From positions 124,001-188,000 of the forward strand of contig CALXWY010000002.1 of assembly GCA_944392535.1 (NCBI GenBank): a stretch of 64,000 nucleotides of DNA, written 5' to 3'. A program made the position numbers and the translations under genes. The stretch comes from an uncultured Alphaproteobacteria bacterium. GTDB lineage: Bacteria > Pseudomonadota > Alphaproteobacteria > Rs-D84. Positions 2,123 through 3,900 of the stretch are shown here, piece after piece. The notes below the pieces were generated by a model. That model did not search any database. It was given only the letters and a program-made list of their open reading frames with translations, and had not been told where the DNA came from. How positions within the stretch are numbered: the stretch's first letter is position 1; every line of letters starts with the position of its first letter.

Positions 2123-2596
2123 TTATTCCGCCGTTGTCGGTTCGGCCGCAACAGGAATTGCGACAACATCTTCGGATACTGTTTCATCAACAACTTCGTC
2201 CGTTGGCAGATTTTCAACCTGTTGAAAAACGATTTCCGTACCATCAGCATTTTTCAATGTCAGTCGCCCATCACGCAAATCATATGTTTCAACCGTCGGC
2301 ATAAACTGGAAATATTCTTGTTCTGTTTGCATGGCATCCATCGGCCCCATCATCATGGTGGATGCAAACGGACTGAATGATATATGGTTTCCGTTTACTT
2401 CATATGTACCGTTATACAGGTTTACAACCCGGCCATTGACACGCATTTCATTCGCGTCAAACGACAGTGTGATATCCGTACCTTCGGCCGCAGAAACAAA
2501 GTTTGCACCCTTTAACATTTCTGGGTTCGGCGCACCGTCACCACACGCCGCCAGGGCCAGCACACCTGACAATATTGCGAAAGATTTGATGTTCAT
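2123..2596 (-). CDS. Predicted lipoprotein, 157 residues
   Basis: The N-terminus MNIKSFAILSGVLALAACGDG is a lipoprotein signal with lipobox LAAC, so the mature protein starts at about Cys19 and is probably attached to the outer membrane. The rest is a small beta-rich domain with SFDANEMRVNGRVVNLYNG and an acidic, Val/Ala-rich tail. No family is recognised. A promoter TTGATA-16-TATACT precedes it, and a GGGGAA ribosome site lies just before the ATG. Confidence 0.82.
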   Translation of the reverse strand: MNIKSFAILSGVLALAACGDGAPNPEMLKGANFVSAAEGTDITLSFDANEMRVNGRVVNLYNGTYEVNGNHISFSPFASTMMMGPMDAMQTEQEYFQFMPTVETYDLRDGRLTLKNADGTEIVFQQVENLPTDEVVDETVSEDVVAIPVAAEPTTAE

Positions 2597-2652: not shown

Positions 2653-2776
2653 AGAATATTATTCCGCATAATTTGCAAAAATATATCCTGTATTTCTGGG
2701 GATAATATACTAATTTTTTTCTTGATTAATCTATATAAAATTGTAAAGTAAATTTGATGCAAGGTATTCTTGCATT

Positions 2777-2928
2777 GGGCTTGATAACCCATGTTGAGCG
2801 TCAAGAAAAGACGAAAAAACTCCAGCATATAGGTTGGAGTGTGTTGAATATATTGAATAAAACACGCAATTCTCAACATTGTTATCAAACTCCAACCACC
2901 GACATGGATTTGGTGGTTTTGTTATTTT
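2777..2928 (+). ncRNA. Putative structured leader RNA or riboswitch-like element
   Basis: The region 2597-2943 has no convincing gene but folds strongly. A closing stem pairs 2781-2798 with 2872-2888 (two 8-bp helices around a small internal loop). Inside it are hairpins at 2799-2813 (CGTC/GACG), 2819-2840 (ACTCCA/TGGAGT) and 2841-2864 (GTGTT/AACAC). A terminator-like hairpin follows (2894-2900 with 2912-2918, then a T-rich run). GGTTGGAGT (2832-2840) is also perfectly complementary to ACTCCAACC (2889-2897), which would break the terminator, so a switch is possible. A weak promoter, TTGTAA-18-TATTCT (2741-2770), would start RNA near 2777. The ribosome site of the next gene follows 8 bases later. 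It is not recognised as a known RNA class. Confidence 0.55.
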
Positions 2929-2943
2929 GTAAAGGAGTATAAC

Positions 2944-3357
2944 ATGACCGATAACATAGTCGCAACATTTGGAAATATCACTTTGACTGATAAGTGTATT
3001 AAATTTGTATCAAAAAAATTAACAAGTCAAAAAACACAAACAATTTTTTTACAAGATATAAGCTTGGTGAATATGGATATCAAATCGCATTCTGTATATC
3101 TTGTCGTAGCTGCGGTTTGTTTCGCGCTATTATTTGTCGGAATGTCTGTTACAGCTAATCTGATTTCTTTTGGAATAGGTGTTGCACTGTGTATAGCATT
3201 TTGGAAAATAAAAACATACACTTTAATTATAACGCCACATGCTGGTGCTGGGAAAGAAATAGCGTGTGAAGTAATTGGCGCTGTCAATAAAGAACAAGCC
3301 GATGATTTTATGGAAAAGTTAAACACATTGAAAGATAAATATATGAAGCGTAAATAA
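2944..3357 (+). CDS. Membrane protein with two transmembrane segments, unknown function
   Basis: This 137-residue protein has a soluble N-terminal part (residues 1-48), two adjacent hydrophobic segments (about 50-88, VYLVVAAVCFALLFVGMSV and LISFGIGVALCIAFW) and a soluble C-terminal part ending in KDKYMKRK. The layout resembles small PH-like/DUF6232 membrane proteins, but I cannot confirm the family. AAGGAG seven bases upstream supports the start. It is the first gene of a tight three-gene operon behind the structured RNA. Confidence 0.72.
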   Translation: MTDNIVATFGNITLTDKCIKFVSKKLTSQKTQTIFLQDISLVNMDIKSHSVYLVVAAVCFALLFVGMSVTANLISFGIGVALCIAFWKIKTYTLIITPHAGAGKEIACEVIGAVNKEQADDFMEKLNTLKDKYMKRK

Positions 3358-3367
3358 AGGATATATA

Positions 3368-3574
3368 ATGAAAGCAATAATTTGCATGGTATTTTGTTTT
3401 ATATGCATCATTAATGCATACAGCATTAATAATGATGCAGTATCTGTTATGCACCAGATTTATGCCGGTCAGTGGGGGTTAGCTGCTGTTCTGTTTTTCT
3501 GTGCGGCGTTTCTACTGGATGCATTAAATCCCAAAACAAATAAGAAATCTGATGATAAATTAGGAGAAAAATAA
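3368..3574 (+). CDS. Small membrane protein, 68 residues
   Basis: An N-terminal hydrophobic segment (MKAIICMVFCFICIINAYS) could be a signal peptide or anchor. A second hydrophobic stretch lies at about 37-52 (LAAVLFFCAAFLLDAL), followed by a charged tail. AAAGGA precedes the ATG. The stop codon shares its last base with the next start (TAATG), so translation is probably coupled. No family is recognised. Confidence 0.65.
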   Translation: MKAIICMVFCFICIINAYSINNDAVSVMHQIYAGQWGLAAVLFFCAAFLLDALNPKTNKKSDDKLGEK

Positions 3575-3900
3575 TGAAAGCATTATTTATGTCTCTTTTT
3601 CTATTAATTATAAACGTTCCAGCATATGCACTTACAACAAGAGAAATAAAATCTGTGTGTGCTGAAATTGCGGCAGAACAGGCTGAAACGGATGAAAGTG
3701 TTGATTTACATGTTCAGAAATTAATTGAAAATGCTTGTATTTGTGTCGGGCTAGAAATTCCTAGCTCTATTTCAAAACAAAAATTTAAGCAATTAATTAT
3801 GACCGAGGATGAATCAATAACAGATATATACAAAGTTTGTGCCATGCAAGAATTGTTTTCAATGCCGGAAATGCAGCTACTAATGCTGTCAGATTTTTAA
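3574..3900 (+). CDS. Small exported protein with paired cysteines, unknown
   Basis: This 108-residue protein has a cleavable signal peptide (MKALFMSLFLLIINVPAYA, cut near residue 19). The mature part is helical, with cysteines in KSVCAEIA, ENACICVGLE and YKVCAMQ, and is probably periplasmic with disulphides. AGGAGA precedes the start, which overlaps the previous stop codon. It is last in the operon; the hairpin at 3994-4022 may end the transcript. Confidence 0.68.
   Translation: MKALFMSLFLLIINVPAYALTTREIKSVCAEIAAEQAETDESVDLHVQKLIENACICVGLEIPSSISKQKFKQLIMTEDESITDIYKVCAMQELFSMPEMQLLMLSDF

Follow-up and report, generated by a model that had tools for sequence, protein, structure and literature searches.

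Here we report that the leader RNA at positions 2756 to 2920 of the window, a 64,000-nucleotide stretch of the genome of an uncultured alphaproteobacterium of the order Rs-D84 (assembly GCA_944392535.1, contig CALXWY010000002.1, positions 124,001 to 188,000 of the forward strand), is a member of an undescribed and very abundant RNA family. We put the probability at roughly three in four that the leader is a self-addressed C4-type antisense module turned transcription attenuator. Judged by the parts that can be read from its sequence, it most likely derives from, or is kin to, the C4 system, of which it would be a terminator-coupled variant. At the level of sequence and covariation, we show its pairing strands, their mutual exclusivity and their locus-specific codes.

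The original prediction for this region was a riboswitch-like RNA in which a long stem encloses three hairpins, followed by a terminator hairpin ahead of a ribosome site, with a 9-bp alternative pairing. Each of these structural elements is present in the window (Table 1). The stem P1 pairs 2781-2798 with 2872-2888 as 8 + 8 bp flanking CC/U, and in the folds it encloses hairpins at 2799-2813, 2819-2840 and 2841-2865; the terminator has a T-rich tail and precedes the ribosome site and the ATG of a small operon. Folding energy is far below that of shuffled sequence for both 2741-2943 (z -5.06) and 2777-2910 (z -4.64), with 0/200 shuffles as good in either case. Two short helices had been missed, S1 (GG 2777-2778 with CC 2789-2790) and S5 (2867-2870 with 2878-2881). 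The expected transcript start near 2777 needs revision, as an extra hairpin, P0, precedes the domain and places the start probably at about 2756. The leader probably has its own promoter; a strict sigma-70 scan did not pick up the candidate at 2722-2749. Among 231 family hits, -10-like hexamers cluster 33-35 nt upstream of the RNA start (120 matches), and a P0-type hairpin of at least 6 bp adjoins the RNA in 194, compared with a shuffled mean of 55.1.

Table 1. Elements of the leader RNA and the operon behind it, in window coordinates
Feature	Position (strand)	Description	Basis
Probable promoter	2722..2749 (+)	TTGATT 2722-2727, 16-nt spacer, TAAAGT 2744-2749	Read from sequence
P0 hairpin	2756..2776 (+)	Probable transcript start	Fold; family hits
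S1 hairpin	2777..2790 (+)	GG(G) 2777-2779 with CC 2789-2790; a1 in loop	Covariation; equivalent in phage P1
a1, 5' strand of P1a	2781..2788 (+)		Covariation; matches a1 annotated in phage P1
b1, 5' strand of P1b	2791..2798 (+)		Covariation; matches b1 of phage P1
P2, variable hairpin	2799..2813 (+)	Absent from some copies	Folds
Strand A	2819..2826 (+)	Competitor, pairs with B (P3)	Fold; 93.6% and 96.2% of cells paired
Strand B (GGTTGGAG + N)	2832..2840 (+)	5' strand of the closing stem resembling that of C4; putative RNase P cleavage directly 5'	
P4 hairpin	2841..2865 (+)	Near-invariant GAAUAUAUUGAAUA loop	Covariation; AAUA/GAAUAA equivalent in RF02221
S5 hairpin	2867..2881 (+)	CAAT 2867-2870 with ATTG 2878-2881; b' in loop	Covariation
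b', 3' strand of P1b	2872..2879 (+)		Covariation; position as in C4 RNA
a', 3' strand of P1a	2881..2888 (+)		Covariation; position as in C4 RNA
Strand C (N' + CTCCAACC)	2889..2897 (+)	Partner of B, or part of terminator	Covariation
Intrinsic terminator	2894..2920 (+)	Hairpin 2894-2918 and start of T tract; 4-nt overlap with strand C	
Shine-Dalgarno	2931..2937 (+)	AAAGGAG	Read from sequence
First gene	2944..3357 (+)	ATG 2944; 137 aa; resembles a membrane protein by eye	No curated Pfam match
Second gene	3368..3574 (+)	68 aa; membrane-protein-like by eye	Orphan
Third gene	3574..3900 (+)	108 aa; secreted-like by eye	Orphan

When the genome that contains the window (0.95 Mb in 5 contigs) was searched at the DNA level, diverged copies of the leader appeared, and nine aligned copies have this architecture in common. 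A covariance model built from seven of these (R1) recovers 19 places in this genome at E below 1e-3. At E<=1, R1 matches each of the 35 examined genomes of the genus, with a maximum of 47 matches in one, and it also matches other families of the order Rs-D84; six genomes of other orders gave no match. A second model built from 90 members (R2) finds the RNA in 186/201 genomes of the order (E<=0.001). In a sample of 142 genomes from the class it has hits in 10, namely the window's own genome, one congener and eight genomes of other families. At most 15 candidates per genome were scored with R2, and copy numbers in that survey are thus lower bounds. The named records that carry the exact core motif are metagenome-assembled genomes, many of them from animal guts according to their titles, and they include Candidatus Enterousia, which is assigned to the order Rs-D84 in the available text of PMC12306168; that text contains no mention of 'riboswitch' or 'RNA'. 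Start codons stand mostly 17-41 nt past the terminator, an ORF lies within 180 nt in 217/232 distinct hits, and some copies stand in tandem arrays, of five units at most, in which every unit has its own promoter-like sequence and terminator. Three IMG/VR viral contigs (L237-L239) also carry the full RNA and may be phage or mis-binned host DNA.

Covariation was measured in two alignments made with R1, one of 85 distinct rows and one of 99 rows. As the original prediction would require, the stems covary: double changes occur in 34/36 and 31/36 model pairs, respectively, and 0/500 shuffles attain any of five covariation measures in either alignment. Three helices outside the model behave in the same way. 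The alternative pairing between 2832-2840 and 2889-2897 (B:C) is formed in 96.8% of cells over the 85 rows and in 98.6-100% over the 99 rows. S1 is paired in 88.8% and 95.4% of cells, with GC/GU/AU/UA exchanges, and S5 in 92.2% and 93.0%, with double changes in 4/4 pairs and with 0/500 shuffles matching its paired percentage and covariation score. Moreover, N after B and N' before C form a standard pair in 75/85 and 94/99 rows, and the base 5' of A does not track N, which argues for selection on B:C in its own right, in addition to A:B. When B:C is given one extra base, its duplex is stronger than A:B in 167/171 rows. B starts with GG in 157/171 rows, and RC[CT] directly follows C in 124/171.

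Because C overlaps the terminator arm by 4 nt, folding of the C4-like domain and termination exclude one another. In the window, the nested state that contains B:C (-46.0 kcal/mol) falls short of the terminator fold (-57.9 kcal/mol) by 12 kcal/mol; it would thus need co-transcriptional folding, a pseudoknot or a helper partner. Five loci in one genus of family f4 (L101, L108, L113, L118 and L121) have no terminator downstream, and by eye their C (CCUCC) stands ahead of the ribosome site GGAGG and could pair with it.

The strands of P1 carry a code that differs from locus to locus. When the a1/b1 strands of each copy were compared with the a'/b' strands of all copies, 18/19 copies of the own genome had their best partner in themselves (mean score 14.1, compared with a mean of 6.2 and a maximum of 11 for other copies), as did 21/21 copies of a second genome, for which 20 of its listed places were fetched. 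The strands were cut by the covariance model columns that contain these pairs, which favours in-register self-pairing and cannot generate differences between loci. The a1/b1 string of the window has no other leader-strand site in its own genome besides its own leader. With an a/b code of its own at every locus, dozens of switches could run in parallel. In one array of five tandem units (L208 3939-5042, minus strand), codes are mixed by eye: units 1,2 and units 3,4 have a strands in common, units 1,4 and units 2,5 have b strands in common, and the pattern looks as though a and b had been swapped independently. In L050, L163 and L188, adjacent tandem units have both their a and their b codes in common, so that the RNA of one unit could act on the next leader.

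The order of these strands is that of the C4 antisense system. The phage P1 record is annotated in the order a1, b1, c4 RNA, a2, b2; the Rfam families C4 and c4-a1b1 match it, c4-a1b1 places a1 in a hairpin loop, and the same hairpins are visible in the phage P1 sequence. In the leader we find the corresponding layout, with a1 in a hairpin loop, then b1, then an antisense domain that has b' in a loop and a' single-stranded. R2 gives no match in phage P1, and neither the window nor 11 loci of distant family members reach the gathering cut-off of C4 (RF01695) or c4-a1b1 (RF03163). Copies of a2 and b2 are not enriched in 177 alphaproteobacterial loci, those with 100 nt of downstream sequence (mean 4.83 vs 4.69 for a2 and 4.75 vs 4.50 for b2), and the classic C4 target is thus missing in this set. 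No paper on C4 antisense RNA together with Alphaproteobacteria was found in the literature collection searched, and the wider literature may differ.

A second connection leads to sRNA-Xcc1 (RF02221). An Rfam scan of the window RNA gives no family at cut-off, and at E<=10 it yields only a chance miRNA match. For sRNA-Xcc1, with a gathering cut-off of 53 bits, the window gives no match, and two distant members remain below it at 36.6 and 33.7 bits. Both matches lie inside the RNA: in the Rfam search of 11 loci, E is 0.0083 for L264 and 0.041 for L263, and for L264 it is 4.8e-5 in a 311-nt search. The own genome contains four RF02221 matches below the cut-off (46.2, 41.4, 35.6 and 35.3 bits), which R1 had missed. 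By alignment, the helix layout of RF02221 is found in the leader, its closing helix corresponding to B:C, its first hairpin, which has an internal loop, to P4 and its second to S5; in one distant member strand B aligns to the closing helix. Conversely, R2 recovers RF02221 loci (L301 at 1.6e-7, L271 at 1.8e-5, L318 at 3.6e-5 and L279 at 6e-4), and of 35 loci searched it gives 10 matches at E<=1. We have not filed the leader under RF01695 or RF02221, because it does not reach either cut-off and, for C4, because a2/b2 targets were not found.

In the phylum, RF02221 is present in 62/398 genomes, in 39 of them above its cut-off. After removal of three duplicates, RF02221-type loci were examined for the strands of the C4 system. 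An a1:a' helix with a score of at least 7 lies upstream of 30/36 loci, compared with 9.4% of swapped partners, and b1:b' scores at least 6 in 31/36, compared with 28.7%. A lenient helix criterion passes 35/36 of these loci, with L278 and L318 doubtful by eye, and an earlier, looser complementarity test was only weakly positive, with 8/34 loci exceeding the 95th percentile set by swapped pairs. In RF02221 loci of other genomes, an a2 copy scoring at least 6 stands after C near the ribosome site in 19/31 (19% for swapped partners), and a b2 copy in 23/31 (23%). When the upstream regions were read, 8/30 loci were truncated and are not included; many of the loci L270-L299, from other Pseudomonadota, have a terminator-like hairpin and a T run between b1 and B, with strand A within the loop region of that hairpin. 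In phage P1, a sub-cut-off match to Rfam isrK overlaps the region between b1 and B. At L279, a sub-cut-off match to Rfam c4-2 RNA (2890-2958, minus strand, E 0.00078) is found some 1.3 kb away from an sRNA-Xcc1 element. Transfer-messenger RNA (tmRNA) genes are frequent integration sites of mobile elements, and at L271 a distance of about 760 nt separates one from an sRNA-Xcc1 element (1501-1585 and 379-742). In the available parts of the respective reports, sRNA-Xcc1 was mapped as an 88-nt RNA (PMC2996969), is located upstream of symE in integron cassettes (PMC12444791), and has seven homologues in Xylella, of which five form a cluster (PMC12189769). No paper that treats sRNA-Xcc1 and C4 RNA together was found in the literature collection searched; the wider literature may differ.

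The genes behind the RNA vary. No good homologue of the 137-residue protein of the window was found in 58 relatives searched beside the own genome; its best match in a relative (E 2.7e-4) runs through a frame with five stops. A hydrophobic N-terminus is present in 69/91 downstream proteins of at least 100 aa, compared with 205/822 background ORFs. Among 137 aligned of the 160 listed downstream proteins, Pfam families are HTH_31 (14), HTH_3 (9), Ephrin_rec_like (5) and OMP_b-brl (3), and most have no family. In other alphaproteobacterial families, downstream proteins resembling outer-membrane barrels and prepilins are recognizable by eye. A family of HTH-looking proteins of 60-85 aa, starting M(R/K)VGQEIE or similar (L045, L052, L054, L061, L201, L208), follows the RNA in 19/217 loci. 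In the window, the divergent neighbour (2123-2596, minus strand) encodes a META-domain protein with a lipoprotein-like N-terminus.

Based on these parts, we propose the following mechanism. Transcription would start at about 2756. By sequence and covariation, the 5' part of the RNA presents a1 in the S1 hairpin loop and b1 behind it, and the 3' part, 2832-2897, is a C4-like domain shut by B:C that contains P4, the b'-bearing S5 and a' before C. The strands a1/b1 can pair with a'/b', which gives the long P1 stem, and B can pair with either A or C. By analogy to C4, RNase P would cut before B and release a short, free antisense RNA, of which a' and b' would bind a1 and b1 on further transcripts of the same locus. 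This pairing would decide between A:B together with the terminator, which would turn the gene off, and B:C, which would turn it on. By analogy again, C4 being a repressor of ant, the most likely effect of the antisense RNA would be repression of its own gene; the opposite sign is possible.

An alternative that overlaps with this proposal is an attenuator derived from C4 that acts purely in cis, its action in trans having been lost, with a1/b1 shaping the fold of the nascent RNA and with constant or growth-dependent read-through. Consistent with it are the lack of a2/b2 in the window's lineage, the finding that the code of the window has its only genomic site in its own leader, and the conflict between terminator and B:C, which plays out within the leader itself. 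However, a stem acting in cis would need no locus-specific code, yet the codes are private, and a1 and b' are kept in the hairpin loops S1 and S5 as if for intermolecular recognition. We regard this alternative as possible, if somewhat doubtful.

We consider it improbable that the leader is a new metabolite- or ion-sensing riboswitch with a pseudoknotted aptamer (S1/P1a, S5/P1b, P4) on interchangeable terminator and ribosome-site platforms. Such a riboswitch would account for the complex covarying fold, the near-invariant nucleotides in P4 and the junction, the exchange of expression platforms, the toggling of B:C and the many copies ahead of varied genes. By contrast, conservation is lowest in the two long strands, which change at nearly every locus, unlike a shared aptamer, and homology to sRNA-Xcc1 and the C4 order also speak against it; no Rfam riboswitch matches in the window at E 10. 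Of the original riboswitch reading, the structured cis leader, the mutually exclusive terminator and antiterminator pairings and the small operon stand. The riboswitch class is not supported, since parts and order shared with C4 and sRNA-Xcc1, together with locus-specific strands, explain the multi-branch domain without a metabolite.

It is similarly unlikely that a regulatory protein binds P4 (GAAUA/GAAUA) and unites all copies in one regulon. The P4 loop is indeed the most conserved part across loci; however, no candidate protein was identified, and the motif has a counterpart in sRNA-Xcc1, so that it may belong to the C4-like fold itself. A stand-alone sRNA with the P4 loop as antisense seed was rejected because a variable hairpin splits this loop in other genera, which makes it look structural. 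A c-di-GMP riboswitch is unlikely, as GGDEF (diguanylate cyclase) genes are missing in 29/29 genomes of the genus; integron attC sites do not fit copies that are scattered and positioned before genes; a functionless mobile-element repeat is contradicted by the covariation and the fixed distance to the start codon; and the helices of a metabolite-binding double pseudoknot (P1 + S1 + S5) are explained by the C4 order as recognition hairpins.

Read as a self-addressed C4-type module, what looked like an orphan riboswitch becomes an antisense mechanism that can be tested, and C4, c4-a1b1 and sRNA-Xcc1, previously described separately, are joined in one architecture. With up to 47 copies in genomes of about 1 Mb, the family would constitute a natural library of orthogonal RNA switches and a possible route by which small-genome bacteria control many surface proteins independently. 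More tentatively, an order of genome-reduced gut bacteria might have taken over a phage immunity RNA and made of it dozens of orthogonal, self-addressed antisense switches per genome, each with a private a/b code that sets, possibly all-or-none, one surface, secreted or DNA-binding protein. If this were true, these RNAs would catch any phage or mobile gene that enters the cell with a matching code, and sRNA-Xcc1 of Xanthomonas and Xylella would be a processed half of a leader, not a stand-alone virulence sRNA.

Compared with known systems, the leader resembles metabolite riboswitches in that its terminator pairings exclude one another and its expression platforms are exchanged, but it has no conserved aptamer-like long stem and instead carries locus-specific codes. 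With sRNA-Xcc1 of Xanthomonas and Xylella it shares B:C, P4 with AAUA/GAAUAA, S5 and a tail past C, and in full-length loci a1/b1 upstream of the annotated RNA; Rfam and the literature, in the parts available, regard the 3' half, of 88 nt, as the complete RNA. RF02221 loci differ in a terminator-like hairpin 5' of B and in a2/b2 that often lie over the ribosome site.

C4 RNA is among the closest systems. It blocks Ant synthesis in trans (PMC8546580, available portion), and according to the portion available of PMC5320573 it is processed by RNase P at GGW, with a' conferring specificity; the GG start of B and the RC[CT] after C resemble this site. The same source describes many C4-like RNAs with variable a' and processing at GGW in Acinetobacter baumannii. 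These are treated there as sRNAs with unsettled targets, whereas the RNAs described here are leaders, mostly 17-41 nt from a start codon and equipped with terminators. In phages P1 and P7 (RF01695, RF03163 and c4-2, RF02944), as in the leader, the order is P0, S1 with a1 in its loop, b1 and the closing stem, P0 being the counterpart of the first hairpin of c4-a1b1 in phage P1. The closing stem reaches from GG to just before ACC; an inner hairpin, the b' hairpin and a' come next in the order, with the downstream gene on the same transcript. The leader differs in its 9-bp closing stem, its GAAUA/GAAUA P4 loop, strand A competing for B, the missing a2/b2, and C fused to a terminator or a ribosome-site blocker; and it precedes host genes, whereas C4 precedes ant.
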